From Zopfochytrium polystomum (taxonomy: Eukaryota; Chytridiomycota; Chytridiomycetes; Chytridiales; Chytridiaceae), in assembly GCA_025765615.1 (NCBI GenBank), contig JAIVFJ010000164.1, positions 1 to 64,000 of the forward strand: 64,000 nt of DNA. Reading direction: 5' to 3'. Each line of letters begins with the position of its first letter. The stretch's first letter is position 1. The notes beneath the pieces are model-generated. The model ran no database searches. It saw nothing but the letters and a program-made list of their open reading frames with translations, and was not told where the DNA came from. A program made the translations under genes and the position numbers. Positions 1-31,988 of this stretch are shown piece after piece.

Positions 1-383
1 GCCAGGAACTCCGAGCGCCGCAGTCCTGCCTCAATGAAAATCTTGGTGTGTTCTTTCGCCCTGACATCATCAAATGCAAAGAAAGTGAACCCAAACCCTG
101 ATCTTTCTGCAATGACATCAACTGCTTCCGCGGATTCTGCGTCAAATATCTACTTCTCAGTTTTCAACTGTAAGCCCGGTCTGCGATGCCGCAGAAGCAG
201 CCAAATGGTATTTATTAACTGTCAATGTTTCTTACGAACGGACTGATCTTTGTAACTTGCAACTACGATCACGACGGTATGAATATGCATAGAAGAACTT
301 CAAATAAGATAGCACAAGAATCAGACTGCACAAGATTCACGTCAGTTTAATGAGGGCGCAGCGGGGGTTTCATCATATCAAAG

Positions 384-1776
384 TCACGCGTCCATCAGCC
401 GGTCGGAGCGGAATGCCAGCGAATGCAGCTGGCGAATGACACGGTATAAAAAGAACCCAAAGAGTGGTATCGAGAGGAGGTACGGAGTCCTTCAAGCCCA
501 AGAAAAGGGACGGTTAATTTTGATAGAAAGCACAACCTCTGCCCCAGATCCGACTTACCCAAAATATACAAACGTTGTCAAAAACACCGTCACGAGCGGT
601 GACCCAACAAAGAGCGTCACCGTCAGCGAGAACACGACTGCATACGCCAAAAAGAATGCGATGCCCGCCGACAACCAGTTCAGCGCGACAACCGCCGCCC
701 GCACCGCCTCAACCAGCGCTGCCGTGCCGCCGCTGCCTCCGTCTCCCTCGACGCCGCCGATCCCGCCGCCTCGGGCGTTCCTGCGGTCGCTCTCGTCGGC
801 CTGCGAAGGCTCCCCTCCGCCGCCGCCGCCGCCGCCGCCGCCCCCCTGCCCGCGGTACAGCCGCGACCCGGCCGCCTGCCGCCTTGCCTCCGGCGACACG
901 CTCTTTGCGCGCAACTCGACAGCCTCAACGAGCGTGCGCAGCTGCCGCGCAAAGGCATGGCGGGTGACGAGCACCAACACGAGCACCGACACCCAGCACA
1001 CGACGTACAGCGCGTCCGCGACGGCGACGACGGCGCGGTAGCGCGCCGGGGCGGCGGGGTCGCCGCTAAAGTGGGCGTAGTCGGAGTAGTAGCCTTGGAA
1101 GAGGGTGAACGCGAGGGTGACGGCGGCGGGGATGGTGAGGGACGGGAGGAAGCGGGTGCGCAGGTTTTTGAGGAAGGGCGTTTGCACGCCGGCGGATCGG
1201 AGGACGATGTTGACGAAGAGGAGGGAGGCGGTGTAGACGAGGAAGGAACGGATCGCCAAGAGCGATCTAATGAGACGCAGAAAAGGATGTGGTGGATTAG
1301 CCGGGTGCAGGTGGCTGCAAGGGCAGAGAAATGTGGCTTACAGAAAGACGGTGGAGCTTGTGTCGAAGAAGGATGCGAGGGTCATTGCGATGCCCGAGAA
1401 TATGTTTGAAACTGTGTACAGGATGATGAACCACTCGAACTGGCTGAACGAGAATATGGGTATGGTGGATTGCGCGTCGTCCAAGCGCGATCTTGTCTTT
1501 TGAAGTAGCTTTTGCAAGACCACCAGCAAAACACCCATCGCAATTGATACGTAGCATATGCATGCGAGGATCTGGCCTGTGGTAGCAAGAAGGGACACGG
1601 GTTTGAGGTCGGCGAAACGATGATCTCAAGTGGGCAGGGGGGGGAGGGGAGCTGGCGGTGGGAGTCCTCACCAAATGTGTCCAGGCCGGGTGCGTAGTGA
1701 TCTGCGCAGAAACGGAGCTGCGCATAGTACACCCCCAACACAAAATGTGGTTGGGGAATGTCTCGAATTTCTGCTG
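384..1776 (-). CDS. Polytopic (7-8 TM, receptor-like) membrane protein, 5' end missing
   Basis: Four exons read on the minus strand: about 1776-1672, 1576-1342, 1266-559 and 489-384, joined by GT/AG sites that keep the frame, with a TGA stop at 384-386. Hydrophobic helices lie around TFGQILACICYVSIAMG, FEWFIILYTVSNIFSG, IRSFLVYTASLLFVNIV, FLPSLTIPAAVTLAF, DALYVVCWVSVLVLVL, a double helix after a poly-Gly cytosolic-type loop, and a last helix TPYLLSIPLFGFFLY. This is GPCR-like topology, but I recognise no family signature, so function is open. No ATG exists in the first exon frame and an in-frame stop precedes it, so an upstream exon must exist or has been lost; the transposon begins just upstream of this 5' end. 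The gene at 12.5-13.5 kb has the same layout. Confidence 0.55.
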
Positions 1777-2160
1777 GAGACAAACGTCGACTTCTTCTGA
1801 GAATGTCTCAGAAAACATTGAGGAAGGGATCCCTAACTCCAGACTGTTGTTGCTCTCGAACAATCGTCGAGACGTCCCAGACACATGTCAGAAACATTCC
1901 TGCGGCATGTGGTAATGCTCCTCCAAAGTAGTTTTACAGACTCTTTGGGACAACTTCCATCATCATACAAGCTGCAGACATTGCTCAGTATACATATGTA
2001 TGACATCTGTGAAACACTCCGGAAACACTTTGATTTCATCCAACAAACAACTATTATCGTGTGTGTGCACTATTATATTTTATTTTAAAGAGAAGCACAA
2101 TCAACAAGAAAAGCAAGGTTGGGTGTCAAAGTTCTACAATGTAGAAGGAAGCAAAGAGGG

Positions 2161-3723
2161 TTAAGCTGGAAGTTGGAGCTCAGTCACTGCATTGATTAGT
2201 GGTAGTTCGTTTGGCCGAGGTCGAATGTAGAGCTCATACTTTGACACCACCCCCTTTTGAGCCTCTTTGGAGAGAGCCTCAAACTTCTGTAGATAGCAGT
2301 TTGTATAGAGCCAGTAGTCACACCCAGCAAGCTTGACAGGATGTCTCTTCAGCACAACGGCTGTATACATCTGAGCCAAAAGTCAGTGGTTGCACTTTCC
2401 GAACAGCGACACATACGCAAATCAAAGCAAAGCATCTGCGGCGATAATTGATTTCATCTGCAAACGTGATCTTCTGGTCAGTCACGAAAAGTGACTCGTG
2501 CTCAGCGTAGAGCCTCGACACAAGACTTTCTGGTGAAGGAGATACTTCGTTGATCTCTTCGTTTATCTGCCCAAATATTTGTAAAAGCAAGGAGAGACAG
2601 TTGACACATTCTCACTGCAACTTTCCACGTCGACTTGATTGAAGACATACTTTTCGAGCACAATCCGTTGAGCGACTCTATGATGGGAAGCGACTCAATC
2701 GGATCGTAGCCATTCTTTGGAAGCAAAACATTCTGATCAAGAAAATTAATACAAGGTAATACAAATCGACTAAACACCCACCTTTATCCACATGCAGCAC
2801 TCTTCAGCACATGGCATCAAATTCACTATCGTTATAGATGCCTGTTTGAACAGATCGGCCTGCGCCTTTGATGCTTTCACCGAGACTTGCGGAAAAGGGT
2901 CAACTTTGCACAGGTATTGCATGCAAAAGCGCTTTATATTTGCCTAAAATCAACCCAGTGAGAAAAGCGCAAAAACTTGCAGGAGGCGACTATATAGTTA
3001 CAGTCAAATAGGACGGGACAGATGCGTTTGTTCCAGATGATGGACCAAACGCAATCAGACCGTACTGAATGGTGAGCATGCCTTCAACATCCAGTTCCTG
3101 AAGCCGAAATGAGCCCTAGCAGCTCGAGATATTAGCCGTTTTCTCACCCTGAAGTTCCGAAGATGTGGGATAGCGTCGGTTGAAATTAGCCCACGCGCGA
3201 TCAAAACTTCGGCCAGACGCAGCCACGCTGGCGTTCCTGGATCAGCAGTGGCCATTCGACTACCTGACAGAATTCCCCTGGACCGTGAAGAAGAGATGTC
3301 AGTTATGGACCAAAACTGACCATGTTGTGCAGTCTCGTACGAGAAGAACATTTTGCCAACCTGGGCCTATACCTGCGCCGAAGGTGATCTGTACTCTCAC
3401 CTATTAGATCCACCAGCGATTCGTCGTCGCTTGTTGGGCCGGTTGAAAGGGAGCGCCTGAAAGTTACTTCTCTCGTTTGGGGCAGTGATTTTGTGTGGCT
3501 GATTTTGAATTGGCCCATCTGATCGTGGTGCGGTTGTGTCAGGTTGTGTTGCTGATTGCGGAATCTCGTCCAGTGTGGGTGGTGGAGCCAGCTCTTGCTC
3601 GTAAGTTTCCTCATGCATACGTTCAGTAGGTGCTAAGTCTTGCTCTTCTTCAAACGAGGGGCTGAAGCTCGCTGCTCGACGAGGGGATGGTGCCCGCGAT
3701 GGTGCCCGTGACGAGCGGCTCAT
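2161..3723 (-). CDS. Unrecognised multi-exon gene downstream of the transposase
   Basis: ATG at 3723 opens a Ser/Arg/Pro-rich start (MSRSSRAPSRAPSPRRAA), then an acidic and a basic stretch ending NRPNKRRRIAGGS, a good donor (GTGAGA) at 3400, and further open minus-strand segments at about 3350-3055, 2777-2502, 2590-2318 and 2379-2163 ending in TAA at 2161-2163. I could not join the later exons in one frame with confidence, so the exon set is provisional. No family is recognised. It may be the accessory ORF that often travels with this transposon class, or an unrelated host gene. Confidence 0.3.
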
Positions 3724-3915
3724 TGATGCTGGAAAGGCAAATTTTTCTGTCAATTCATGTCAAGTTATTTTCTCTCTCTGTTTCTCCTCCATCGAGCATG
3801 GCCAACGCGAGCAGCTATCTTCTTATGAGCACCAATGATTGATTCATAGCTGCTATTATAGATTCCGATCTCAATCCGCATTCCAATACGCTACTTGATC
3901 TCCTCTTCCAGGGTT

Positions 3916-6900
3916 TCATGGCTCTGACGGATCCTTGGCAGATTGTTTCCCTTTCGCTGATCGTTTTGCATGGGAAAGCCAGTCAGAGACTTGTTTTTTT
4001 GTCCATTGTCGTTCGTTGTTCTCGTTCACCGCAGCAAGTGCCTCATCCACAACACTCACTCCAATCGTAAAATCATCCAAGTAGCTTGACAATACTTTCT
4101 TCTCCGAGTCAGTCGTACGGTTGTTGGCCTTCCTCTTGCCTGTTGTTCCAATCAATGGCTCGGTTGATTGAGAAGTAATATTAGCTGTTACAGCTACTGG
4201 CTCGAAAATATCTATATTACGCCGCAATTCTGCAATGGTCGTTGGCTCATGCAGGTCTGCTGCTGGTGTTTGCTTCTGAATACCTGCTGTTCGAAGTCGC
4301 TTGGATTTTGCAACACAAACCTCTTCAACCCTTTTCGCCTTCTTTGTTCGACTAGAGAATGATAACATTGCTTCATCGAGTGCTGCTTCCAAAACCTCTG
4401 ATGACCCAAGGGAGGAAATTTCGATGAGTCCAGCATCATAAAGTAGATCAAACGTAGAAGTACAGTATATGTTGAGAATGCGCAATTTCCTGCTGCTGTT
4501 GTGCTTCACATACTGCATTGACCGCTGCGACTCGTTTTTAATAGGCTTCAACGAAATTATGCACAACTCGTCGCAGAAGTGGGGACAATTCACTGTATAA
4601 ATATTGTTCACAGTTATACCACTCTGCCATGTGTCTGTTTCACCGCTGGGCTCCATGACAGGACAGTGATTTTCCATTTGTCCGTTTAGCCTGTATTTGC
4701 GTACGTGAAGTTGGTCGTGGGCTTTGAATGATATGATTTCCCCGAACGTGTTTTCTCCATCCTCCTGCTTCAAAAGCATTGTGCCAATTCGAGCCAATTG
4801 CAATGGAGGAGATTCGGCAGTTAATTGGTCTAGATATACATATATATTTAAAAGTCGTAGTTAGCTGTTGGGTACAGTGGCATCTTCACTTACGCATTCG
4901 AATTTGTGGGGGGCAGAAATCAATTGTCAACGACTGCCAAATTGAACCAACTTGATAAAGCCCTCCTGCAGTAAGATGTCGAGCGGCAGCTTGCCGTGCA
5001 AAAGCTAATGCAACATCTTTCGACGTGTTTTGCCTGTTTGAACCGATAATGTTGCTGCGAATATGCTTATTAAAGCTCTCTTGCGTTTCTGAGGCATAAT
5101 CCTTTGGTCGTCCAAACCTCTTCACATAGAACGGAAGTTCTCGTAGGAGATGAAGCTTTGGCTTGATCATTTTCCAGCAATAGGGGCTGACGAGGATTGC
5201 ATTCACCATTGCATTGAGGATCCGGTCCAGATGATCACAATAGTTTTCGATATTTCTAATTTCGCCTCCGTTGATAATTACTACAAGCGCAGCCAAGGAG
5301 GCCCAAAGCGTTTGAACATTTGCTGGAACTAGACCACGTAAAGCAAAAACAGATATTTGGGCGAAGTTTTTGAAGTCTTTTCCGTTTAGAGACCCAACAT
5401 ACTTGACCTATAGTGATGGGACTGTCAGCGTCACGTTTATATAGACAATACAACCATCTCGTGTCCGCGAAACGGAATTGAAAACCCAGAATTATCGACC
5501 CCTTCAATTCGTGCTTTGAGCTCCTGCTTCTTCGCATCATTCAGAGATCTTATCGTCTCTTGCATACAATACTTGACAACCCCAAGGTTTACGGTGTGCA
5601 GAATTTCAACTGGACAATCCAATGAGAGATCAAAGAAAGGTTCCTCGTTCATTTTGCCTCAGTTCGAGTTAGTTTTAGAACGTAAATTGTCACACAATAT
5701 ACCAAGCAACGGATTCATCATTAACGGACGATGTGGCTGCATAAGCCCATGCTCGAAATGCTTGTCTTTGATGCCCATTTCTGCCGCCAATGAGATAGCT
5801 TTACCAACTTCTATGTCACCCTCCAGTACCCTTCGATGTAAAGAAGCGAGAAAGTTTTTCACACTATGTCCATCTTTAATACCGGCACTTGGATGCTGTT
5901 GGGGGCCAATAAACTCAAGTAGCTTTGCTCTTGCCCGCATCGGATCCTTTTCATTCTTCCAGCCACTTCTTCGACAAAGACGGCATGGTCGATTCGAAAG
6001 TGTACCTGTGTGCGAGGCAATGACTGAGTGCATGGGATTATCCCCAACAACAGATAGAACTGATGTAACAATTAGGATAGGAGCATGAGTCAATGGGTTA
6101 ACTCCTTTAACTCCGTCTCTGGTTATTCGCAACTCATTGGAAATGACCTCTGCTGATTCAAAGCCAGCAGCAGATTTTGAGGTCGTTAGAAAGTGGACAT
6201 GCTCAGGTCTATTTCGCAGTTCTGCCTGTAGTCCAGGGAAGCTCATGATCCATGATTCATACTTGTTCCATTTTTTTGAAGTATTGCCACTTGTGTCGTC
6301 GCTAAAGAGAGCGATAAGAATCATGACAACAAGCACTCCAGCAGCACGAGTTCGGAGGGTTGATGGGCCAAACTTCATTCTTGATAATTTCCATGGTTGT
6401 TCAAGGCCGCTCCTTTCTTCCACAATTAAGGAACTCATATCACAAAACTTGAGCTCTGACCCGTTGCCAACCCTATGTTGAACCTGAGTGGATAGGTCAA
6501 CTCTTACAAGGGAGTCGGCATGCACTTGACAGCGATACCCTCGCCAAACAACATCCTGTCCGTAGTATCCAAATGTAGTGATGAGATAAAGTTTTCCAGT
6601 AGACTCAGTAGACTTCTGTAACATGTAAACTTACCCTGAGAACAAATCCTGAGTTTCTGTTCTCCACATTGGCGATTGCACATGTTCTCTCCATTTTGTG
6701 CATCCAGATATATCAGTCAACGACTCATCAAAGTGTGGAAGAAACGTCATGTTGTTCCAAACTTCCTTTTTTCCCAACTCCATTCTCAAGATATCCGCGA
6801 TGGAATTATGATGAATGACCTTGTTTGTTGAAGTGAGCGCTTTTTTTGGCTCATTTCCACAAAGGTCGACACAATCTGTGATCACCCGTTTAATTTTGCT

Positions 6901-7614
6901 TAAGGATGGAACATTTTCAACCCCAAGCTGATGAAGGAGATCCAATATGGCCACTTTCACAGGGTCTGAAAAGAGTGAAGCCTCTTGGTAGAAAAAAAAC
7001 GCAAGCTTCATATCTTGGATGCTGTACTTCCTTGTGAATAGAGGATCGAACGGCTGTTGGGAAAACGAACCCTTCGGGTCACTTTCCTTTTCTTGCTGTT
7101 CCAAACCAGCCTCTCCCTTGCTGCTTTCTGACGTGACTGTATCTGGCAGAGAGGTTGCATATCGCTTTTCCGGGCTCGAATCGCTGCTGTTGGGAGCGCT
7201 GTTCATGTCGGAATTTTTGTTGCTTGAATCGCTTGAATGCGAGGAGTTTGAACTGCTGTCCGTTGGGTCCCTTTCGCTGTCGGCATTTGACATATGGTCC
7301 AATAATTCTCCATCACGATTGCCTTGAACCTCGTTCATTCTGTCCGGACCTGTGTCAAACTCCTGGGGTCCACATGATGGGGGGATCGCACATGATGGCT
7401 GATTCCCCCTGTTTCCCGTTTCGTCAGTTCTCTGAGCTGACAGAATCTCCAGCGCAACATCAGCCTCAACAACCGATGGTACGTTTACAACACGATTGAG
7501 CCGCTCAAGCCGCTTATGCTTGTCTGATAAGTTGTGAAGGTGAATCTGCGACAAATGCTTTACTTTGAGTTCGATTCTGCAGAGCGGGCAAAAGTAAAGC
7601 GATTGAGAGCCCAT
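3916..7614 (-). CDS. KDZ/Plavaka-like transposase, interrupted by two in-frame stops
   Basis: Exons 7614-5455, 5407-4894 and 4829-3916 keep one frame. A C2H2-like knuckle near the start (CPLC, then spaced histidines) is followed by a Ser/Asn-rich linker. The core contains LFSDDTSGNTSKKWNKY, CRLCRR, PVEILHTVNLG and, further on, KLHLLRELPFYVKRFGRPKDYASETQESFNKH, all recognisable landmarks of the DDE transposases of fungal KDZ/Plavaka elements, here in the expected order. DNA cleavage and rejoining in the nucleus is the family role. Two in-frame stops break the frame: TAA at 6631-6633 (overlapping a GTAAGT) and TGA at 5659-5661, with coding sense resuming in the same frame after both. No normal-length intron removes either, so this copy is probably inactive, or unusual short introns are used. 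Confidence 0.75.
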
Positions 7615-8910
7615 GGAATTTGGGTGTCGTTTTGCTGACGTTCGGTACACAAACGTCGGTTGTTGGGGGGACGTCTGTGAGATCGTCGGGGAACTGTTTT
7701 TGTCGTTTGACCGCCGGGCAAGACAGAGATGAACAGAAAAAATTTTTCTTCAGACAAGCGGGAACGGAGTTTCATTGGTCATCCTCAATACATTTGGTCC
7801 CCCACACATTCCCCGCCAACCTTGAAAAATCTCTGAGAAGGAACTGACAAGTCAGGACGCCCCCAGGACATCTTGCTTGTGTGGGGTGTAGCAATCTGCG
7901 AGTTCGTGTTTGCGTCAGTCCAAGAAAAGAGGAGCTGAGAGATCGCACCGGTCAGATCGGCCATGCTGTTATTAATACTGTTTTTTTTTTTTTAGGCGCC
8001 TGCTGTTGCTTCCGGTGCTGCTTTCGGGGGGTGGGCGGGTGCGGCCCAACGAGCTAGTCGATTCGGGCTCTCGTCAAAATGAACAGCAGCCAGACTGGCG
8101 GAAACACAAGGGTCGCTCTGAATGAACGAATGACGTATAATAAATGGAGAGACAAGCTTATCGCCTAGTTTTCCGTTGCCTCTCCCCTTTTTGGAAAATG
8201 GTTATTCCATTTCGCAAGGACCCGTGACGCTGATTGAGAACCGCCACAGAGGGCATCTGGAAAACATACATCATGTCGAGCGGACCAGATTCGGGCAACA
8301 AGCTCAATGGAGCAAGCCAACTCGGCGAGGAGTGAAAAGTCGAGAGTACTTCCAGCACGTGGGACCCCCCACCCTTGGATGAACGTCCCTTGAAGCGAGC
8401 ACCTCTCTCGTCCTCGATTGGGGGTAACTATGGAGCGTGCAGAAAAATGTAATAAAAATCAGAGTTGCTGATCAAGCAGAGAATTCAATTACTTGCGCAA
8501 AGCTCCCCTCAAGCTCGTTTGTATATTTTCCTGTTCGAACGCATCGGGAAGACAGAACCAGCTCGAAATTTTTTTCCTTTCTCAACCCAATCCACCGCAT
8601 GCGCTCTTTCACCGAAACTGCCGCAAAAGGAAACGGGTGGGAGGGCTTGTTCCAAAAGGGACTTCGTTCGGATGTGGGAAGTTGGCCCGCTCAGCCGAGT
8701 TTTCAAAGAAGCATGAAATAACACGGCAGACAGACGGAGACAGACAGCGAGAGAGAGAGAGAGAGAGAGAGACAGACAATGAGAGGGTTGAGAGTGAGGG
8801 AGGGAGACAGAGAGACGCCCCCCCGCGAAGCCCTCACACACTCCGCAACAAGGACAAAAACTCAGAAAAAAGGCAAAGAAAATCATACCAGCCAACCCCG
8901 CCCCCGCACA
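7615..8910. other. Intergenic stretch between transposon and protease gene
   Basis: No reading frame here looks like a real gene. It contains a T-run at about 7981-7994 and a GA-rich purine tract at about 8748-8790 just upstream of the protease. The right end of the transposon must lie in its first part, but I could not place it. Confidence 0.5.
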
Positions 8911-10522
8911 ATGCAGATCAGAACCGCCGTCGCCGCCGCCGCCGCCGTCGCCGTCCTCCCAGCGACCCTCGCTCTCGCCGCCCCCACCACCGCGGACGGC
9001 GTCGTCACCGTCCCCATCTCAAAGCCCCGCGCCCCGACCGCATCCCACGCGATCGTCGGCGCCCTGCGAAGGGCAAAGTTCTCCCGCGCCGTCAAGGGCG
9101 ACGACGCCGACCCCGCGCCCAAGGTCTTCACCTCGAAGAACCCGCAAGGGTCCGCGAACCTGTACAACGAGCTGGACCAGCTCTGGTCCGTCAACATCAC
9201 CCTCGCCAATGGCGATGTCTTCTCGATGGACCTCGACACGGGGTCCAGCGACACTCACATCAGGTACGAAGGGAAAGCTTGGTTGTTCCTGTTTTCTAAA
9301 CTCCCCTCCTTCGCTAATTAAGGGGCACTCGCTGCACAACCGAAGACGGAGACACTTCCTGCGATGGCAAGATGATCAGCTTGAAGAACTCGGCCAAGTA
9401 CCAGTTCATTCGCCAAAACAAGGCATTCTATGTGCTCTACGGCCTTGGCGCTGTGGCCGGTGACGTTGTCACTGGACCAATCACTCTTGGAGGTAAGATA
9501 CGAATGGCCTTGCCGCGCTCTTTCTGAGAAGTGCTTCTCCAGGATTGACGGCCAACATCTCTCTCGGCATCAACGCCATCGAGCTTTACTTCTCCGGCTC
9601 GGACGGCCTGATGGGTCTCGGCTACGACTCTATTTCCGACATCAAGAAGTACACCAACCTCAGCACCAACTGGTTTGACGCTCTCGGCTACAAGGATCAC
9701 CGGAACAGGTGCAAATTTCTTGCCTTGGTGGCAAGATGGTTCCTCCCTAATACTCTTTAAAAGGTTCTCCTTCTACCTCTCCAACACTGTGGACGACTAC
9801 GGCGAGGTCACCTTCGGCGGCTCGGACTCCAGCAAGTTCAAAAACAACATCCACTGGTGTAAGTATCCGACCGTTCAACAATGGTCACCATCCGTCTAAA
9901 CATTTCGCGTTTCTCAATTCCACACAAAAGACCCCCTCACCTCCGAAACCTATTTCCAGCACTCCATCGCCAACTGGACCTACACCGTCGGAAAGAAGAC
10001 GGGCCAGCTCTGGAACTACCAGCCAGGCACCACGGTCCCCGCCGACACCATCGTCGACACGGGCACAACGCTCGTCTACCTTGGTCAAGACGCCGCCGAC
10101 GGCATCAACGGCGCTATCGGTGCAGTCTACGACAACACCAGCGGTGTATACCTCTTGAACGACACCCTGTGCGACCCCAAGGTCCTCCCCGTAGTCAAGT
10201 TCTCGGCACCGGCGACGGGATCGACCCCAGCCACCACTTTCGAGATCCCGCCTGCTTCCTGTGAGTCTTTCACCCTCTTTTGCAATCCTTCTCCACTTAT
10301 TCAAAAATTATTAAACGACTCGGCGCCCCCTCCCAAAAAAACCACTCAGACCTCGTCCCCAACGTGGACAACAACGGGAACCCCATCCCTGGATGCGTGT
10401 CCGGATTCTCGAACGGCGGTGACGACCTCGGCATCCTTGGCGACGTCTGGATCCGCGCCCAGTACACCATCTTCGACAAGAACTCGAACCGCGTCGGGTT
10501 TGCGACCGCCGTCCACCCCTGA
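8911..10522 (+). CDS. Secreted pepsin-like aspartic protease (A1 family)
   Basis: Six exons: 8911-9263, 9323-9492, 9543-9708, 9764-9858, 9931-10260 and 10350-10522, total 428 codons, all with GT-AG borders and continuous frame. The start is the ATG before a hydrophobic Ala/Val-rich signal peptide (MQIRTAVAAAAAVAVLPATL). A propeptide follows. The two catalytic motifs are present: DLDTGSSDT in exon 1 and VDTGTTLVY in exon 5. FSGSDGLMGLGYDSIS and the C-terminal WIRAQYTIFDKNSNRVGFA also fit the pepsin fold, and length is typical. It would cleave proteins at acidic pH outside the cell or in the vacuole; no GPI-anchor-like tail is visible. No frame damage is seen, unlike several neighbours. Confidence 0.93.
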
Positions 10523-11337
10523 GAAGACAGCCCGCAGTCTGAAGAAACTGCTGCTTCTTTCTTGTTTTTCCTTCTTTCCTTTCAAAAGACTTTATCCTGG
10601 CACTTGCAGTAGGATCCTTGTTGGATCTTTGCAAACCGTCCATTTAATCAAACCCCGACACCCCGGCCTTTTTTTTTCTCGTCCTACGTTCTTTGGTTCC
10701 TTTACGAATCGCTCAAACTTTCTCCCACCAAGTAATCCTGAGGTGTTCGTATGACATTTCTGTCTAATAGAGTGGTTTCAAGAATGAAATGGATTCTCAC
10801 CCTCCTACCTTACCTTTATTTCTCACGCTTCACTTGTTCCCTCCCTCATAAAAGTGCAAAAAATAAGCATAATGTCGCAATGACAAATTATGAAGGTTTG
10901 TTTCACCAAATGTGTCGTTGGAATCCAGAATCATTTTGAGTTGACATTGCTGAGAACAACCAGGAGCGCGTGTAGCAAGTAGTGAGGTTGGCAACCTTGT
11001 TCGGGTTGAGGACAAATTCCGCGGGTTGAGGATTTGTCCTTTCTCCTTGCCACGTTTGGGGATGAGGGTGCTTTACTCAAAGACGCTTCAATTTTTTCTC
11101 CACTGCTCTTCCCTTCACAAGTACATATCACAAAACCAAAACGGGTCGAGGTTTGCTTTGGCGCACGAAAGAGCAGGCAAAGAGATGCCCAAATGATTTC
11201 TGCGGCGGGGGGAAAAAAAGTTAGCTTGGAGGCTCGACCGCTGCTTGGAACGATTTAACAACACCATCAACACAAATCCTAAGACGCGGTATCCAGTGCC
11301 CAGCGCGAATATAGCCAGCAGGTTTCGCGTGGTTTGG
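10523..11337. other. Intergenic, no supported gene
   Basis: Pyrimidine-rich 3' sequence of the protease gene followed by sequence with only short, unconvincing frames. I see no gene or repeat family here. Confidence 0.5.
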
Positions 11338-11389
11338 TCAATCGTGCACCAAATTTTCAGATTTGTTTGAAAGCCGTGAGATGATGCGG

Positions 11390-12402
11390 AAAATTAATCC
11401 CTCACCTTCCCCTCCCCAAAAAAAAGTGTCCCAAGCCCCCCAACAACATACCCAAACAACACCGTCGACAAAATCACATTGTACACCTCGCGGTACCAGT
11501 CGATCCACATGCGAAACTGCGCCTCGGCAGCCCACCGGTTGGGGCTGAACGCGAAGAGGAACTGGTTCGTCGGGGTCAGCGACGGCCGGCCGCAAAAGAC
11601 GTCGAGGAAGAGGCCGACCACCACCACGAGGAGGGACGCGTCTTGCCGCAGGACGAGGAAGGAGATGACTGTTACGACGTCGCTGGGAGATGAGTGAAAT
11701 GGAGGGAGGGAAAGTGAGTTTATTTGTTGGTGAACGCGTGACATACTAGATGGCGTACTAATTAAGGAAAAGAAGGGCACTTGATATGTCACCGGAATGG
11801 CAGGCTTTGCGAGCATATAGTGGACCGTGGATTGGATCGGGAGAGGAGAATGGGCAAAAGGCCGATCGTTGAGTGACTTTTACAAAGAGCCCATGTCGGG
11901 CAGGGGAAAAGAAAGAAGTACCAGCTGTGAAATGCAAGGAAGCCAGCGCAATACGAAAAAAGGAAGCCACCGTTTTGCCCTTACGTTTGGTTTGATCAGC
12001 GTCGGTTTGGTTCTCCTCACAAACGAACTCACAATGTGGCAGACGGTTTTGCGGTGACTGGAGGACTCTTCGCGAAAGAAGGCCGCTTTCTCCTCACCGA
12101 AAATCTTCACGGCAGGCGGAGACGCGGCCAGCGCCACCGCAAAGCTCCATGCCGATGCTGACGCACTTGCGCTGCCCGTCGGAGATGCCGCGGGTGAGCT
12201 CGCTGCCGATTTGAGTGTGGACGACTTCTTCGAGGCTGCGGCGGTTTGGGCGGGAGAGGATGCATTAGCGACCCACATCCGTGCACCCCTTGTTTTCCCC
12301 GCCTGAAACACTCAACTTGAGAGCCTTTATGACATTATCCACGTGGTTTTCAATCTCTTGCTTTCGTCCACGAGCGGGGCAGCCGAATTCGTGCTGCGTA
12401 AG
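11390..12402 (-). pseudogene. Decayed ABCG (half-size/white-type) ABC transporter
   Basis: On the minus strand an exon ending at 12317 reads KQEIENHVDNVIKAL, joins across a GTTGAG...CAG intron (12316-12235) to LEEVVHTQIGSELTRGISDGQRKCVSIGMEL, which is the helical subdomain plus ABC signature loop of ABCG transporters (usual form GISGGxRKRVSIGMEL). Directly after it a frame break leads to LAASPPAV and then unrelated sequence: the Walker B/LDEPTSGLD segment is gone. A later piece (about 11640-11470) reads FAFSPNRWAAEAQFRMWIDWY, like the C-terminal end of ABCG24-type proteins. Walker A and most membrane helices are absent. I infer an internally deleted pseudogene. Confidence 0.6.
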
Positions 12403-12456
12403 CGGGCTGGATAAGGGTGGCACGCGACTACTTCCATTTGCAAAGCAACGCACAAA

Positions 12457-12483
12457 TACACACACACACACACACACACAAAT

Positions 12484-12512
<29 letters not shown>
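12457..12512. repeat. (CA)n microsatellite
   Basis: A CA/AC dinucleotide run interrupted once by AAATAC, lying between the ABCG relic and the membrane-protein gene. Confidence 0.9.
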
Positions 12513-12516
<4 letters not shown>

Positions 12517-12544
12517 CAACTCAATCCATTCATTCATTCAATTA

Positions 12545-13540
12545 TCACGCATCGGTGAAAGGGGGCGCTTTCGATTCACATTCGTTTTCCGTGGATTCAA
12601 CCACCTCGACGATGCACGCGGCGGCGAAATACGAGTGCTCGGCCCAGGAGGCACTCGGCTTGGCAGACAGGATCCGCGCGGTCTGTTTGTTGCAAGCGTT
12701 TGTTTTTCGAGTTGCTGTTAAGCTCGCAGTTGAGGGTTTCTGGCATTCAAAGAAGAAAGAAGAAGATCTGACCCTGTTGGATCGCAACGCGAGCGCGAAC
12801 GCAGTCGTTTGGAAGATGAGATAGGTCCCGTATCCACCAAAGACGTGCTACAGGGCGTGGGCGGGGATTGAACCCCAAATGCGACCAAGGCGACAGAGAC
12901 GTTTCTCATATAAGCTCCAAATGATTGCAGCCACCACGAGCAAGCACGCGCCCGTCATTGCATATTCATACGCTAGCTTGATTTGCTCGGCCTTGCAGAA
13001 TGGGTCGCAAGGCGCGCCTTGCTTTGTCGTGCCCGAGACCCTCTCTGCCTCCCTCTTTCTGCTCGCGAGGCTGAGAACGAGGCACACGACGCACACCACG
13101 TAGACCGCAACCTCCCCCGCGGTGCCCAGGTCCGGCATCTCCGTTGAGGCCTCCGATACAAGCGTGACGACAAGTCCCGACGTGAGCAGCTTGCACAAGA
13201 CAACCTCCACCGCGGCCCACGCGGCCGCTGGCAACGACGCAAGGCGGGCCTCCGCGACCTTGTCCTGGGCGTTGCTCTGACCAGCCCGGGAAAGCGTGGA
13301 GACGCACTCGTGGACGAGAAATGGCGCCACAAGGATGCCTGGGACGGTGATGGTGAAGCCGTCGAGCCGGTTCCAGTCGGCGCGTCCAGTAAAGTGAGCT
13401 CCGAAGGAGGCCACGCCGTTGGCTGTCATTAGAGAGTACAGCGCGAGGAGCAAGCTGTCGTTTCTGTTGTACGCTAGGGTGGCGGCGGTACCGAGGAGTC
13501 CCAGAAGGACGATTACCGCGGCCGAAGTACTGCTCGCCAC
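12545..13540 (-). CDS. Second polytopic membrane protein, similar layout to the gene at 0.4-1.8 kb
   Basis: A minus-strand exon to about 12870 holds several helices (AAVIVLLGLLGTAATLAY, GFTITVPGILVAPFLVH, VVLCKLLTSGLVVTLV, VAVYVVCVVCLVLSL, GACLLVVAAIIWSLY) with a basic loop. Across a CTGTAG acceptor at 12848 the next exon reads FGGYGTYLIFQTTAFALALRSNR and continues to a TGA at 12545. The donor is not clear. Reading begins at a GTG, not ATG; upstream in the same frame is a TAG (at 13558-13560) preceded by a stretch with an ATG. So the start is unresolved. The order of helices, the charged loop before the last two helices and the RS-D/N-R tail resemble the gene at 384-1776; I infer distant paralogy. 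Confidence 0.45.
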
Positions 13541-13560
13541 CTCGGGGAATCCACCCTACC

Positions 13561-14413
13561 GTGCTTCGCAGAATGGGAAATCGCCACTACGGACCTCTGT
13601 GTTCATTGACGTTTGTTCTTTTTCTGGATGTGGAAATACAGAAATGGAAAAGCAATATTCGAGAAGCCGGAGAGGGAACAGAATATGGGACGGTAATGTG
13701 CTTTTCAATCTGGCTTCCGAGAGGCTCTTTGCAATGTGATGTACAAGCATCCAGTTGAACGGCAGCACCAAAAATAGTGATCTAGGTTGTCTAAATGATA
13801 CAATACCATTTTACCAAAAATAGCGCGCCACAGTGTGCAGTTCATGATATGCCTACAAACTCAACCACAGAATGCTGAAACACAGACGAAACGACCGTGC
13901 AGATTTTGAATCCTGGCTGGGAAGGGGCGTAGGAGAAGGCTGCTCCGAGTGTTGGCTCGACTTTTGGCCATCACTACACACTCATCAGCGGTTATGTTAA
14001 CCAGCAATGATGGGGCGGAAGAGGCGGTTTGGCCAACGATGGGTTTCAGCTTCAAGAGCACAAATGGATTGAAGAACTTTGTCGTTCACGTGAACAGTTC
14101 TAGCATTGGTGTCGTCGTAAAGAACAAACTCGCAGACTCCACTTTACCGCCATGTATTTCGTGGTTTCCGGCCAGACCCTTACTTCTCGCTCCCCGCGTA
14201 CTTGTACACACCCCCTTTTCGTCCTTCCAAAAAGGTCGCAGAGCCGGCATCGTGTGAGGCGGGCGCGGTGTGGGCGAGGCCGTTTGGGAGGAACAGCGAG
14301 TACCCGCCGCACGCGGCTTACGGCACGCTCGAGGGTGGCGTCGTGGGCCAGGACCGCTCGTACTCGGGTGCCGCGTTGTGGGAGCAGTTCTAGTTTGATT
14401 GGTGAAGCGAAGG
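13561..14413. other. Mostly non-coding; one weak plus-strand C-terminal-like frame
   Basis: Only one frame is suggestive: plus strand about 14240-14393, after a possible acceptor (GTCGCAG), ending GALWEQF-like at a TAG. It carries Gly/Tyr-rich sequence but matches no family I know and has no clear upstream exon. Confidence 0.25.
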
Positions 14414-14539
14414 TCAAGGGCCAGGAGCGTCAGTCTCATTTTGCTCGCCACAGCAGATGAACGGTCGAATGGCGAGAACCGCGATCCTGACCTGTCTGTG
14501 ATTGGCTTGGGTGAGCCACACAACACTGAGGTGCAAGGT

Positions 14540-14870
14540 TACCAGGATCTCTACAACTGATGCAGTGAGGACCCGGCCCTTTTTTCCTGTGAAACTGAGG
14601 TACGTTAAGCCCGCTAATAATACTTTTGTGGATACTGCATATCCAAGCCGCTCTGACAGCCTGCTTGCAATCTCATCCTGATGCATCTGGGGCCGCTCAC
14701 GGGTAAGAGCTTCAATAAAGTCCAAGTCCTTGCGAGTGAGGGACATTGGATGTCCACTTCCGACAGAGCAAGGGGCTGTATGTGTTCCCCCTTCTCGTAT
14801 ACAGCCAAAATTTTCTCATAGATTGCTTGAAGATTACGAAACGTTCAGCCAGCTTCTTTGTTGTCGGGCG
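14540..14870 (-). pseudogene. Tc1/mariner-type transposase N-terminal relic
   Basis: Minus-strand residues MSLTRKDLDFIEALTRERPQ and MHQDEIASRLSERLGYAVST have the pattern of the second helix-turn-helix of Tc1/mariner or IS630-like transposases (L-T-x-E-D-L-x-F-I then DEI...L...G..VS). Upstream, in another frame, a short helix-like piece follows. The catalytic DDE part is absent, so this is a scrap. Confidence 0.5.
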
Positions 14871-15503
14871 TCAGGGCTATGGTAGCAGGTGTACACCCGT
14901 TGGAGATGCGTTTGCCTCCATTGCTGTGGAGGATGACGGTGGTGGAGGCACAGTGGAGGCAGTTTTGTGATCAAGCAACATGGAGCGCAAGTGATGAACT
15001 GTTGCCCCCTGTGTCCTTCCTTCGTAGCCTACCAATGTGACCTGCTCCAGTGATATCAAATGCTAGCGTGATAAGCTCCATGCAGGTAGTGCGCCACCAA
15101 AGCGACGTGGAAACCAAGGTTCAAGGGAAATTGCTGTAGGTGCAGCGTACGTCAACTGAAATTAAGCAAATGGTAAATTCCGCCTCCATGAGGCAGTTTC
15201 TGCCGGTAAGGCTCAGCCCACCGGTTTCGGACGCCATCCCAGAACGGAGGTCAGCTGAATGAAACAGCCCATTGAAAAAACAAGAAAATTCATGCGACTT
15301 TCCTGCATCATTTCAGCCGGACCATGTCTTTTGCTCTGTCGTCCTTTTATTGATCAAAACCCAAATCCAAACCTGGCAACAATGACTGGCGGAGCCCTTG
15401 GCTGAGCCACCCACCACTCACCCAACACTACATAAACCGACCACCTTCTTTGTCGGTCGACCCAACAGTACAATCTCGGTCGCTGATCTCCCATAAAACA
15501 CAA
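14871..15503. other. Intergenic upstream of the micro-exon gene
   Basis: No supported coding frame. The last 90 bases before the ATG hold a TATA-like ACATAAACC at about 15430 and pyrimidine-rich leader sequence. Confidence 0.4.
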
Positions 15504-16343
15504 ATGGCTGCTCCCCGACCGTCGCTCGTCGCTCTTCTCTCCCTCGTCCTTCTCGTTCTGGCCACTTTCGTCCCCAGTGCCTTTGCAATCGGACCTGCCG
15601 TGCTCAAGCCCCGTACATGAATCAGTGTCCGTTCAAACCTTCTGCCTAATACTCGTGAGCAACCGCCCAATCTCATCTCCCTCGTTTAAGACTTACTTAA
15701 CTTTGCCTCCCCATAGGCCCTGTAAACAAAGAACGTAAGCCTTTCACCCAACCATAACAGTACACTCATCCCCATCACTCGAAAAAACTAAAAATAACAT
15801 TCAGCCGCTGTTGCAAGTATGCAATCTCTTTACGTTAATTTGTACCTTTTTCTTTCCGATTGCTCGCTGACTGACTTCGTCATCCCACATTTTCCCCTTC
15901 CTGAAGCCCCCCGAGTCGCTTCCAGCGCTGGTTCAGCTCGTGAGTTGCCGCCACCTTCCTTTCCTTCTTTCTCGTATAATACTCACTCCTCTTTGCCTGA
16001 CCCAGGCTTCCTGAACAGAGAACGTAAGCCTTTCATCCAACTGATTCGGCAACTCCTTTTTATCGCTTGCTCCGGCTTGCTGACTTCGCGAACCCCACAC
16101 CAAATCCTTCTTGAAGCGGTACGGGTCGCCTCCAGTGTTTCCCGTGAGTTGCCACCTGCGTTTTCCTACTTTTTTCTCTCCTAATACTTAAGCCGCTTTG
16201 CCTGACGCAGGCGCCGTGAACAAACAACGTAAGCCTTTCTTCGACTTTAGCAAAACTGATCCCCAGCCCTCGAACAAAATAATCTTTCAGCCGTTGCGAG
16301 GAGTGCCTCCAAAAGGGTAAATTTCTCACATTTCTTTCGGTGA
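15504..16343 (+). CDS. Secreted peptide precursor encoded by tandem micro-exons
   Basis: Exon 1 (15504-15612) encodes a clear signal peptide (MAAPRPSLVALLSLVLLVLA, then TFVPSAFA) and ends in phase 1. It is followed by six micro-exons: 15717-15734 (18 nt), 15805-15816 (12), 15907-15939 (33), 16006-16023 (18), 16117-16143 (27), 16211-16228 (18), and a terminal exon 16291-16343. Every internal exon is a multiple of three and phase 1-1, with canonical GT and AG borders, so any could be skipped without losing frame. The 95-residue product carries repeats of R-x-V/L-N-K/R-E/Q alternating with P-V-R-V-A-S-S-type segments and ends near a Lys-Arg pair. I recognise no family. A GTAAAT inside the last exon leaves an alternative downstream continuation possible. 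Likely exported; function unknown. Confidence 0.7.
15655..16316 (+). repeat. Tandem exon-intron repeat units inside the micro-exon gene
   Basis: Three copies of an 18-nt exon, each flanked by matching intron ends: upstream introns begin GTGAGTTGCC or GTGAGCAACC and end near CTTTGCCTGACSCAG, and downstream introns begin GTAAGCCTTTC. The alternating 27-33-nt exons also share sequence (RGTCGCYTCCAG). Both exons and introns were duplicated together. Confidence 0.75.
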
Positions 16344-17100
16344 AAACTTTTAACATTCTTTACCCCCTTTGACAACGAATAAAGGCACGACGCTAATTGC
16401 CAGGAGAAACGCTTAGTCCAACTCCGCTGTGGCAAGCTGTTCGTCGACCGGTCAAAGGAGCTTCCATTTTTTATTTGTTTTGTTGTGCGCGATTTTGGTG
16501 TGTCAATCAAAAAATCTTGGGTGTAAAACAATGGAAACGTGAGCCTTCAACATTTTGATTCGCTGTCCCGGGAGCGTGTGAAGAAAGGGAGAAAGGCGCA
16601 GCTGGAAACGAGCGGACCTGTCGCCCCTTTCCAGGGTTTCCAATTGAGCGCCCCAGAAATATGGAAAAAGACAGAACATCCTTGCAAATATTCCACCCCA
16701 AACCGAAGTACATGTACGGGAATATTCCCGGTAAAACTACACTTTCCGTTGGGTGAACAGTGTTTCAAAACAGAATTCCCTAGCGATTCTCTCTTTCTTC
16801 AAATCACTTTTGAGCAGAATCAGACGCAATCGTCGATCAATTCGCCCAGTTTGTTCGTCAAACACCAACTGGTCTCAACTTGATCCGCGAACAAAAGGCA
16901 TGCACAGTCCTCGACCATCGCTTCGCTGAAACACGCTCTTTCAAGAAACTTCCAAGGCTTGAGCGCAACGCCAGCGTTGCCCGCCCGCGCCGTGGTCGCC
17001 GCCACCGCCGCGTTTGTAGGCTCCGCATCGATCGCGATCGACGACGGCTGAGATGGAAACTGACTGTGAAGACGAAGAGTTTTCGGAAGTGGCGGAGCTT
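16344..17100. other. Intergenic; weak minus-strand frame only
   Basis: A minus-strand frame at 16820-17227 is open for 135 codons and Ala-rich in the middle, but has no recognised domain and overlaps the cerato-platanin upstream region. I do not call it a gene. Confidence 0.35.
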
Positions 17101-17119
17101 TCAAAATTTCCGGGGGTGT

Positions 17120-17140
17120 GGATTGGCAAAATGCCAATCT
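17120..17140. promoter_or_regulatory. Perfect inverted repeat with CCAAT motifs
   Basis: GATTGGCA, a three-base AAA spacer, then TGCCAATC. Each arm holds a CCAAT/ATTGG box, and a third half-site (GATTGGCAC) occurs at about 17184. It lies about 570 bases upstream of the cerato-platanin start and may be a bound operator-like site. Confidence 0.4.
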
Positions 17141-17289
17141 AAAGTGACGATGTTTTGACGTCCGTGCCAAATCTTCAAAGCCTCGATTGGCACATTCCTT
17201 TTTGGGCATCCTCCATCGCATCGCCATCGCGCGCTCCCTCCTCCATCAGCCCTCATTCCAAATATGGATTGTTGGGGCCGGCTGCAAAG

Positions 17290-17425
17290 CGGCAGGCCCT
17301 GTGGTTGCGCGTTTGTACGTACTGGCTTGGTCGCACCACTTCGGAACTCGAGCGAACCATAAATTTTTGCGAGACGGCCCAAACCGGACCCGGCAGGCCT
17401 TGTGGCTGCGCGTTTATTCTCGCTT
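17290..17425 (+). repeat. Imperfect direct repeat in the cerato-platanin upstream region
   Basis: CGGCAGGCCCTGTGGTTGCG at about 17290 recurs as CGGCAGGCCTTGTGGCTGCG at about 17389, both followed by CGTTT, about 98 bases apart. Confidence 0.6.
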
Positions 17426-17561
17426 GGTTCCCATTTCGTGCATTGAAAGCGACAGCACAGAGACAGAGAGACAAAGTCGGTGCAAATGGAGATGGTGTGG
17501 GGGAGGAGTCAAGCCACACTCGCACACACACTCCTCCCACGCGCTCTGGACGCCCCGGCAT

Positions 17562-17705: not shown

Positions 17706-18158
17706 ATGCAATTCAAGGCCATCCTCGCCGTCGTCGCCGCCGCCGCCGCCGCCGCCACTTCCACCCCGTCCGCTCTCGCGTCGCCGCTCCACCGCCGCGA
17801 CGACGTGTCCGTCGCCTACGACCACAACTACGACCGCGCGACCGACCTGTCCCTCGCAAGCGTCACGTGCTCCGACGGCAGCAACGGCTTACTTACAAAG
17901 GGCTACTCGTCGATCGGCGCCCTGCCCGCCTACGCCGCCGCGTCGCCGTACGTCGGCGGATGGAACTCGCCAAACTGCGGCAAGTGCTACACCGTGTCGT
18001 ACAACGGGCGCTCTATCAATGTCATTGCCGTCGACCTCGGAAACTCCTTTGTCATGGGCGAGGACGCCATGAACGACTTGACCGGCGGTCAGGCTGAGGC
18101 GCTCGGTCGCGTCGCCGCCACCGCGGTCGAGGTGAACCAGTCCGTGTGCGGCCTGTGA
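17706..18158 (+). CDS. Cerato-platanin family secreted protein
   Basis: Single exon of 150 codons. The start ATG precedes a signal peptide (MQFKAILAVVAAAAAAATST), then a possible Kex2-type site after LHRRDD. The mature part has the full family pattern: SVAYDHNYD, then LASVTCSDGSNGL, YVGGWNSPNCGKCYTVSYNG, INVIAVD, AMNDLTGGQAEALGRV and the C-terminal VNQSVCGL. Four cysteines (TCSDG, NCGKC, VCGL) are placed as in known members and would form two disulfides. These small double-psi beta-barrel proteins act in the wall or are secreted, bind chitin-type oligomers and can be recognised by plants. The family is best known from Dikarya. A strong TATA, direct repeats and a palindrome lie upstream, suggesting regulated high expression. 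Confidence 0.95.
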   Translation: MQFKAILAVVAAAAAAATSTPSALASPLHRRDDVSVAYDHNYDRATDLSLASVTCSDGSNGLLTKGYSSIGALPAYAAASPYVGGWNSPNCGKCYTVSYNGRSINVIAVDLGNSFVMGEDAMNDLTGGQAEALGRVAATAVEVNQSVCGL

Positions 18159-29464: not shown

Positions 29465-31882
29465 TTACAGCATGTTCAGGCGTGCTGCCACAAAATCCCT
29501 TTCCTCGCCCCGCTCGATAAAAGCACCCTCAAACGCCAAGACATTCATCCGACGCAAGTCCTGCCACGACAAATCCGGTCACTCGCGCTTGATGACCGCA
29601 AACTCTTCGGACAGCGCGCTGCCAAACACGGCGCTGTCGTCCGTGCATATACTGAACCGCGCCGCCTCGCGACGCAGAAACCGCTGGCGGTAGTCGTCAA
29701 AGTGATGGAGGTCGTAGCGCTCGACGCTCCGCGACAGTAGGTTGCTCGTCAAACACAGTTCGACCGGGATGCCCGATCGGCGCAGCCGCCGCTCGTTTTC
29801 GAGAGATATGAAGCAGACGTGGCCCATGCGGTCGGGTCGAAAGTCTAGCATTGCGGACATTTCGCCGTCGGTGTTGGGGACTTCTCCGGCGTGGAGGGTT
29901 GTGCGGAGCCCGGCGGACCGCGCTCGGGACAGTGCAGGCTTCCAATCGGACCACGTGCCTTTGGTTGGGTCCCCGCTCAGGTCGATTCCCACGACCCCGC
30001 GGGCCCGCAGCGCCACGGCGAGATCCACTGTTCTCTCGGCGGCTTCAGGACCGCCGCGGCGATCGATGGAGAGAAGCAGCCGAGCGATCGTTCGCGAAGC
30101 GAGTCCCGAGCGTGACTCTGCGTATTCTTCCATTCCACTTAGCACTGCATTGCAGTACCCTTCCTCGTTAAGCCCGTAGTCTGGCTGCGCCTTTGGCGTC
30201 GTCCGAATCTCGGCGTACGCAACGCCGTCGGCCTCCATGTCTTCGAGAACCTCGCGCACGACTCGTCGGATGGTCTCCTTCCCTCGAACAACTTTATGGA
30301 TGACGTCAAAGACCGCAAACATCTCCGAAAGCGTGCGCGCGTCGTTCTCGACAACGTGGGCGGCCTTGTCGTCGAGGCCGCAGCGCTTTGCGAGCTCGCT
30401 GAGCGTCGAGCGGCGAATGGACCCGTTCAAGTGCGCGTGAAGTTCGACTTTGGGGAGGCGACGGCAAAGCTCGAGGGTTTGTTCCGGAGAGGGTGGTGAA
30501 ACGTCCAATCGCATCTGCAAAAGCGCTCTTCCGTGCTGTGAAAAAATTGCGGATATGGAGCCTGGCGAGTCGGGCGGTGGAGAAGTGCTGAAACCAACAT
30601 CGGATGCTTCTTTCCCTTCCAGAACACGGCGCCGAAGGATGAGTCGCTCGCGCTCTGCTCCTTGGTGGCTGGCGATGCCGGAAATGCCGTCGATTCCAAA
30701 CGCAAGCTGCTCCACTTGGCCGCCTCCAGCGTTGAAGCAAGCCGCCCTTTCATCTGTCGGACCAATGACAAACACAGTCGACGACCGAGTTCTTGCGTTG
30801 CCAACCAGCAAAACAACTTCGGCACCACTACCAAAGCCGAGCTGTAGCAACTCATTACTCTTCGATTTAATGATTGCCAAGCATTCTTCCGTCCAATTAT
30901 CGCCGAGGAGTAAGAATTGCTGGCTCAACCCAGCTGGAGGGCCATTACGGAAGTAAATGGCGCTGTGCTGGTGACCTGCTGCGATCGTCACGTCTACCGC
31001 ACATTGATCAGCCTCGGTAAACTCCAAGATAACTTGAGGAGTCCAAAATATGCCGTTCAGCGCAGCCGAGAGTACCGAACCGCGTACCGCTGCGAGCTCA
31101 AGCTGTCGGTGTCGATTGTCGCCCCAGCCAATCACAGCGTGGCGGGCACCCCGATCTCCCAGAGAGCAGTGAACAAGAGTGTGATGCAGACCCGCCGCGA
31201 CAGAATGCACGCGCAGCCTACCGAGCCTGGGCCCCGCAAACGCCCGTCGCAAATCAATAAGCCTGGCATGATACGGTGAGGCGGGGGCTGGTTCATGAAA
31301 CTCGCCGCAGCCGAGCTCCCCAAAGTCGTTGCGGTCCCCGAGCGCCAGAAGTAGATCGTCTGATTCGCCCTTGGACGATCCTTCGGACGAGCCGTCCTCC
31401 AGCACGACAAAGCTGCACCATCTCCCGCACCCAATCGCTTTCAGACGTAAGCGATGTGTCGCCGTCAGTTGCTCCCCGTTCAGAGCCTGAGCCAAGAGAC
31501 TTCGCCAGTTCAATTGCATAAAGTCCAAGTCCAGATCCGCTCCGGGCGTTGGGGGAATCACACTGCCGCTCTGACCGCGAGAGCTGTCGCCGGCGAACCA
31601 GAGCTGTGGGTCGTGGAAATCTATCGACGTTGTCTCGAGGACGGCGAGGGTGTGGCTCTCGCCTGCGCTCAGTTGAGTTACTTTCCAGCCAGGGGGCGGG
31701 AAGGGCAGCGGGTCGGTGGCTGTGCTTCGGGACGTTGATGGGATCGCGGGTGTTGTCGCCTGTGGCAAGCTGTAGGTGGCGCGGCGCGCGGCGACTTCAC
31801 TCTCCGTTGAGACGGCATCGTGCGGATCGTCCGGCAATGCTAACAGCACGTAGCGATCGGATTCGTGTGAAGGTGCGTGCAT
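29465..31882 (-). CDS. Fusion: RCC1-like (ATS1/Kti13-type) N-terminus with adenosine-deaminase-like C-terminus
   Basis: One long exon from ATG 31882 (an earlier in-frame start is TTG). The first half has RCC1/ATS1-style blades: VTQLSAGESHTLAVL, LKAIGCGRWCSFVVLEDG, VHSVAAGLHHTLV and TIAAGHQHSAIYF. From about residue 460 it is an adenosine deaminase: KVELHAHLNGSIRRSTL (metal-binding HxH), TTLHAGE (catalytic Glu), MGHVCF and SICTDDSAVF (metal Asp). This is the ADAL/MAPDA subgroup pattern, which deaminates N6-methyl-AMP. A TGA at 29579-29581 stops the frame, yet 37 further in-frame codons (PDLSWQDLRRMNVLAFEGAF onward) to TAA 29465-29467 look like the normal ADAL C-terminal helices. So the protein is either cut 38 codons short, read through, or affected by a base error. 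Confidence 0.85.
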
Positions 31883-31988
31883 GTGCGTTGTGGTGGCTGT
31901 CGGATCGAGATCGCGCTTGTCAGACTCAGCGGAGTCCAAGCTTGCTCCACCAACACGTCATATTTCATTTAGGATGTTTTATTGCACT

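Follow-up and report, generated by a model that had tools for sequence, protein, structure and literature searches.

The window analysed here, a stretch of 64,000 nt (positions 1-64000 of contig C164), comes from the zoosporic fungus Zopfochytrium polystomum (Chytridiomycota, Chytridiales; NCBI), an organism of the kind that the first-pass annotation of this DNA had named; the infection stages mentioned there were assumed, as no sign of a host was seen. It contains a candidate gene, the window copy W, in which an exon resembling, by eye, a signal-peptide exon is followed by a series of symmetric micro-exons (Table 1), the combination that had been proposed for it. Each of the six internal exons has a length divisible by three and is symmetric, lying at the position claimed for it between introns that are without exception in phase 1 (104, 70, 90, 66, 93, 67, and 62 nt, in order). 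The donor after exon 1 is GTACAT, and the internal exons are followed by GTAAGC, GTATGC, or GTGAGT. An 18-nt exon (A) had been described as occurring three times, and it does, with GTAAGCCTTTC directly after each occurrence. The description of two alternating exon types held for A and B, which recur, but a third type, b, sits between A1 and B1. An in-frame TGA had been placed 12 bases past the first donor; it actually begins five bases beyond position 15613, where the donor starts, and shares the frame of the ATG. Because of this stop codon, exon 1 of W can reach the micro-exons only by way of the donor GTACAT, which is weak as judged by eye, and W is probably impaired, a weakened or damaged member of its gene family. 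The same exon 1 donor position agrees with P0060, the protein deposited for the sister copy C164b. The ends assigned to exon 1 and to the last exon are provisional.

Table 1. Features of the window copy (W), in window positions; C164b, C496, C457, C58, C34, and C111 are the other copies in the genome.
Feature	Position	Strand	Remarks
Exon 1, signal-peptide-like	15504..15612	+	109 nt; starts MAAPRPSLVALLSLVLLVLATFVPSAFA...; ends CCCC, followed by GTACAT; signal peptide judged by eye
In-frame TGA, just past first donor	15618..15620	+	From sequence and alignment of copies; W only
Later phase-1 donor GTGAGC	15655..15660	+	Within open frame of sister C164b, beyond open frame of W
Micro-exon A1	15717..15734	+	18 nt (R-PVNKE)
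Micro-exon b	15805..15816	+	12 nt in W; 18 nt in C457, C58, C34
Micro-exon B1	15907..15939	+	33 nt in W; 39 nt in C34
Micro-exon A2	16006..16023	+	18 nt (R-FLNRE)
A-intron-B-intron unit	16006..16210	+	205 nt; one further tandem copy in C34
Micro-exon B2	16117..16143	+	27 nt (P-VRVASSVS)
Micro-exon A3	16211..16228	+	18 nt (R-AVNKQ)
Last exon, b-type start	16291..16343	+	PVARSASKR; TGA at 16341-16343; putative end (GTAAAT donor at 16317)
AATAAA, possible poly(A) signal	16378..16383	+	In W, C164b, C496, C457, C58, C34; absent from C111; putative function
Terminal exon of deposited rival model	16957..17051	+	Model skips all micro-exons

Aligned with each other, the two units A1-b-B1 and A2-B2 agree at 142 of the 201 positions compared, and neither b nor the intron halves next to it find a counterpart. 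The last exon together with the end of the preceding intron resembles b and its intron end (score 50, which none of 2000 shuffles equalled). From these alignments, we interpret the gene as a series of A-b-B exon triads, the second of which appears to have lost b, although it is also possible that b was gained in the first. Membership of exon 1 in the triads is not established, because its end aligns with A1 over only six junction letters, a match equalled in 1697 of 2000 shuffles. About 110 nt around the first intron, present in C457 and C34 and missing from W, C164b, and C496, include the exon 1 donor and the greater part of a 45-nt exon, B0; the resemblance of B0 and its intron to B1 and its intron, equalled in 1 of 2000 shuffles, is suggestive. 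The tandem exon duplication that had been proposed is supported. The extra A-B unit of C34 is identical to the neighboring unit at 199 of 205 positions. A shifted comparison of the C34 units (150/197 identical) was discarded, since it extends beyond the end of the array.

Three DNA searches of the genome (80.16 Mb in 761 contigs) agreed on the same seven places, W, C164b, C496, C457, C58, C34, and C111, so that there are at least seven copies; a large gene family, looked for genome-wide in these searches, was not found, the counts being lower bounds. Exon 1 DNA matched in at least five places, and the A-exon pattern with its splice sites gave at least 19 matches in the genome at three or fewer mismatches, all within six of the copies, with 0 for the control. 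With our choice of exons, two of the seven copies are open from ATG to stop. The first, C34, encodes 144 aa in 11 exons, with nine of nine internal exons symmetric, and is open up to the exon 1 donor GTAAGT. The second, C164b, encodes 109 aa and is open with either of two exon 1 donors, the later being GTGAGC. The TGA at 15618 is absent from C164b, C496, C457, and C34, the four other copies that have this stretch.

The remaining five copies, W, C457, C58, C496, and C111, are impaired or unclear. Exon 1 of C457 carries a 1-nt deletion, and C58 has no exon 1. These two copies are collinear in five pieces that are 97.9-99.0% identical and are probably alleles; a stretch of 343 nt with exon 1 and the upstream region (G000:C457:6443-6785) is missing from C58, which is probably the allele without exon 1. 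The distant copy C111 (∼70% identity) gave no match to exon 1 in the DNA search, and its b and A exons, counted by eye, measure 17 and 16 nt. In C496 there are 1-nt gaps, one of which leaves B2 at 26 nt. W and C164b differ at 42 sites; of these, C496 shows a gap at 17, agrees with W at 7, and agrees with C164b at 18, and it has 12 further gap columns, suggesting that this copy is probably a diploid consensus blended during assembly. Because of these signs of blending, frameshifts in the assembly need caution. Our frame counts leave out C496 and C111.

The sister copy C164b sits in an inverted arm of the same contig as W, and the arms (window 1-17534 and G000:C164:112556-123896) share 98.5-98.8% identity in three pieces of 1.7-5.7 kb; they may have arisen by genuine inverted duplication, or two haplotypes may have been joined into a chimera. 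A 6.16-kb insertion at window 1730-7887 (45.6% G+C), missing from the other arm, ends in CACCCC...GGGGTG with TA on both sides and looks like a DNA transposon. None of the four ORFs scanned in it matched a Pfam family over the cut-off, and it may be related to the Plavaka-type elements. At window 17805-18155, 1.5 kb downstream of W, lies a cerato-platanin gene (PF07249, E 3.5e-34). A genome search for cerato-platanin gave at least 25 matches over the cut-off, pieces and probable alleles included, and several adjoin copies of the micro-exon gene: C164b, C496, C457, and C58 have one within ∼2 kb, whereas the search gave none on C34 or C111. Since the two genes adjoin in some copies and not on C34 or C111, they were partly duplicated together. 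Farther along, at window 29579-31939, there is an RCC1-adenosine deaminase fusion whose best named match is in the basidiomycete Tilletiaria anomala (71%), followed among the named matches by Thecaphora, Violaceomyces, and green algae, with unnamed matches between; gene transfer or patchy loss may possibly account for this distribution. A basidiomycete origin of the window, which the best named match had suggested, was rejected once the peptide search pointed to Z. polystomum.

The predicted peptide begins with a hydrophobic N-terminus ending in AFA, as read by eye. The mature peptides predicted for W, C164b, and C34 have a pI of 12.0, with 13-20 lysines plus arginines and no cysteine, and are made of the repeat motifs R-x-x-N/I-K/R-E/Q and P-V-R-V-A-S-S, one short motif per exon. 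The earlier statement that the peptide belongs to no recognized family agrees with our searches. Pfam gave a single match to the C34 peptide, under the cut-off (E 0.027). A protein search with a profile of two predicted peptides (791 candidates scored; database 5.77 billion) and a second protein search (1 candidate) returned, at E ≤ 10, one protein only, DFJ73DRAFT_800457 of Z. polystomum itself; because candidates must share exact 5-residue words, very distant relatives may be missed. The best reading of these searches is that the repeat peptide may be confined to Z. polystomum. Rfam and tRNA scans gave no lead, nor did a scan for bacterial-type promoters and terminators, a method unsuited to a eukaryote.

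Taken on the sequence, we consider it fairly probable that Z. polystomum has a small gene family encoding a secreted, basic, cysteine-free repeat peptide from a frame-neutral A-b-B exon array. A secretion signal exon would come first, and the mature part would follow as an array of A-b-B triads. Whole exon-intron units could be duplicated or lost by exchange inside introns with the frame left intact, since internal exons that are multiples of three between phase-1 introns allow units to come and go without frame damage. The differences in unit number and exon length among the copies fit such exchanges, namely the extra 205-nt A-B unit in C34, the absence of b from the second unit, and the 6-nt changes in b and B1. 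The architecture, the copies, the differences in unit number, and the frame neutrality are seen in the sequence itself; the joining of the exons by splicing, their translation, the secretion of the peptide, and the location of the exchanges in introns are inferred.

Compatible with a family of this kind is the idea that, in the style of schistosome micro-exon genes, regulated exon skipping would produce many variant peptides from one locus. Since all internal exons are symmetric in W (6/6) and in C34 (9/9), skipping any of them would keep the frame. However, the same symmetry is equally what exon duplication requires and leaves behind, and regulated skipping is in our view possible, if somewhat doubtful.

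The evolution of exons and introns was compared among W, C164b, C457, C58, and C34. From A1 to the last exon, micro-exon lengths differ twice, each time by 6 nt (b and B1), and there are no in-frame stops in the micro-exons; intron lengths differ mostly by 1 nt, and also by 3 and 7 nt. Among close copies, roughly equal rates per site were obtained for nonsynonymous and synonymous change (0.083 and 0.048, respectively, for C164b and C34; 0.074 and 0.097 for C164b and C457; 0.113 and 0.091 for C457 and C34), and substitution is near neutral. Rates of this sort are what a dying family might show, in which an array that formerly coded now drifts and no functional peptide is made, and the five impaired or unclear copies, together with the absence of exon 1 from one of the two allele-like contigs (C58 versus C457), point the same way. 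However, C34 and C164b are open throughout, and the micro-exon length changes preserve the frame in all five closer copies. Moreover, none of 57 splice-site positions differs between C164b and C34, although this is weak evidence, with only ∼3.5 differences expected at the intron rate, and 3 of 57 differ when C457 is compared with either copy. On this evidence, we think it unlikely that the family is simply decaying.

The only deposited model for the locus treats the array differently. In that model, exon 1 is spliced between CCCC and GTACA directly to 16957-17051, and the array falls within a 1.3-kb intron. The NCBI protein P0060 (DFJ73DRAFT_800457, 67 aa, Z. polystomum) is consistent with this structure in C164b. 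Its first 37 residues are identical to those of the C164b copy. In P0060, KPR is followed by LSATPALPAR...DDG, and window 16957-17051 encodes this tail with one difference; the tail frame, as judged by eye, is open in W and C34 as well. In contrast, the tail acceptor and 5' part are missing from C457 and C58, and past window 16509 nothing matched in the 5-kb C111 locus. The model also does not explain why the supposed intron should hold, in six copies, an open chain of symmetric micro-exons with consensus splice sites, and the AATAAA common to these six copies would, if it acts as a poly(A) signal, fit a transcript that ends before the tail. We therefore regard the deposited structure as improbable.

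A secreted peptide with a role in recognition or in an arms race might be under diversifying selection, with exons changing faster than introns. An excess of exon differences was found between C164b and C457 (exons 12/152, introns 8/456, p=0.0008) and between W and C457 (13/152 and 10/453, p=0.001). However, the excess is not seen between C164b and C34 (11/152 and 28/455, p=0.70) or W and C34 (p=0.58) and is seen weakly between C457 and C34 (17/158 and 28/455, p=0.07), all of these being tests on small numbers that are not independent, because the copies share history. Synonymous change in the exons is also high between C164b and C457 (4 of 41.3 sites), so that the excess in this pair points to gene conversion or chance. 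Against C111, exons are slower than introns (19/90 and 89/235 for C164b, p=0.004; p=0.0008-0.004 over all three comparisons), with the reservation that the introns align poorly and the array is only partly present there. Diversifying selection thus seems quite unlikely, and the pattern is read as possible longer-term constraint with little recent constraint, with no claim of positive selection.

That the micro-exons are a chance chain of splice sites was rejected on the basis of scans and shuffles. We scanned 256,840 nt, comprising the whole of C164 plus 20-30 kb surrounding each of the other copies, on both strands and in three phases, for chains of symmetric, stop-free exons of 9-51 nt with donors GT[AG]NG[CT], acceptors [ACT]AG, and introns of 50-120 nt. 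In this background, which consists of C164 and the surroundings of the copies and is not a random genome sample, chains of five or more symmetric micro-exons occurred solely at copies of the micro-exon gene. The phase-1 chains numbered 6 exons in W, 7 in C164b, 5 in C496, 8 in C457, 10 in C34, and 7 in C58, with none in C111; the first member in C34, C457, and C164b falls within exon 1 and is not put forward as a separate exon. Phase-2 chains are also open in W (6), C164b (6), and C34 (5), but only in phase 1 do all six copies besides C111 have a chain of at least five. Against the six observed in W, none of 2000 dinucleotide shuffles of 15001-17000 reached four (plus strand, best of three phases), and when the whole 64 kb was shuffled and read on both strands, one of 30 reached five and none reached six. 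These statistics are descriptive, because the splice patterns were chosen after the exons had been seen and duplicated exons are not independent.

The family that we propose resembles the schistosome micro-exon genes (MEGs), in which, as described in PMC4350168, very small symmetric exons make up most of the coding region. MEG exons are given as about 6-36 bp, and the likeness would extend from several such exons to a product that is secreted or gland-associated (PMC8673669), the chytrid product being putatively secreted. The schistosome-type architecture attributed to the locus by the first-pass annotation stands as far as the small symmetric internal exons are concerned (six of six in W, nine of nine in C34). 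However, micro-exons account for 126 of 288 coding nt (44%) in W, less than most of the coding region, and the corresponding share in C34 is 144/435 nt (33%) when exons up to 36 nt are counted and 228/435 (52%) when exons up to 45 nt are counted. No relationship to MEG sequences was found in the protein search at E ≤ 10 among candidates sharing exact 5-residue words. MEGs also appear restricted to platyhelminths in the account of PMC4350168, whereas the organism here is a chytrid, and the splicing of its micro-exons is predicted. Because of the coding share in W and the absence of a sequence relationship, we do not class it as an MEG; the best reading is convergence with the schistosome genes.

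Other systems share parts of the design. Aphid bicycle genes, described as fast-diverging putative effectors, have many unusually small internal exons in one phase (∼17 exons on average), but nearly all of these are in phase 2 and the proteins carry CYC motifs (PMC9168663), whereas the chytrid exons are in phase 1 and the predicted mature peptides have no cysteine. The SP7-like effectors of arbuscular mycorrhizal fungi are, like the putative chytrid products, fungal proteins with a signal peptide and imperfect hydrophilic repeats that vary in number, and they too have dispersed, near-identical paralogues and copy losses (PMC11333574). In the description given there, a conserved island ends each repeat, an intron lies before the first repeat, and the effectors are reported only in Glomeromycotina; one exon per repeat is not part of that description. 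Trichoderma Xlr2 contains a functional fungal microexon, but it is a single one, in a transcription factor, with RNA support (PMC11121469). This 2024 paper describes functional microexons as previously undescribed in filamentous fungi and tested only in Schizosaccharomyces pombe, and P450 genes of a white-rot fungus are reported to contain microexons (PMC1184071). Among titles and abstract openings in the open-access PMC literature, we found no fungal micro-exon gene for a secreted peptide.

A stronger proposal, which we put forward as speculative and rather doubtful, is that the chytrid family might be an independent fungal counterpart of the MEGs, making variant secreted peptides by frame-neutral choice of micro-exons and renewing the set by unit duplication within introns. 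The locus also illustrates how a micro-exon gene can vanish from annotation, since the sole deposited model makes the whole array an intron. If the exons are spliced as read here, a micro-exon design for secreted peptides would have arisen independently in a fungus, and Z. polystomum, a cultured organism (strain WB228; described in PMC7482067), would allow one to ask whether such a design serves alternative splicing or is the footprint of duplication.
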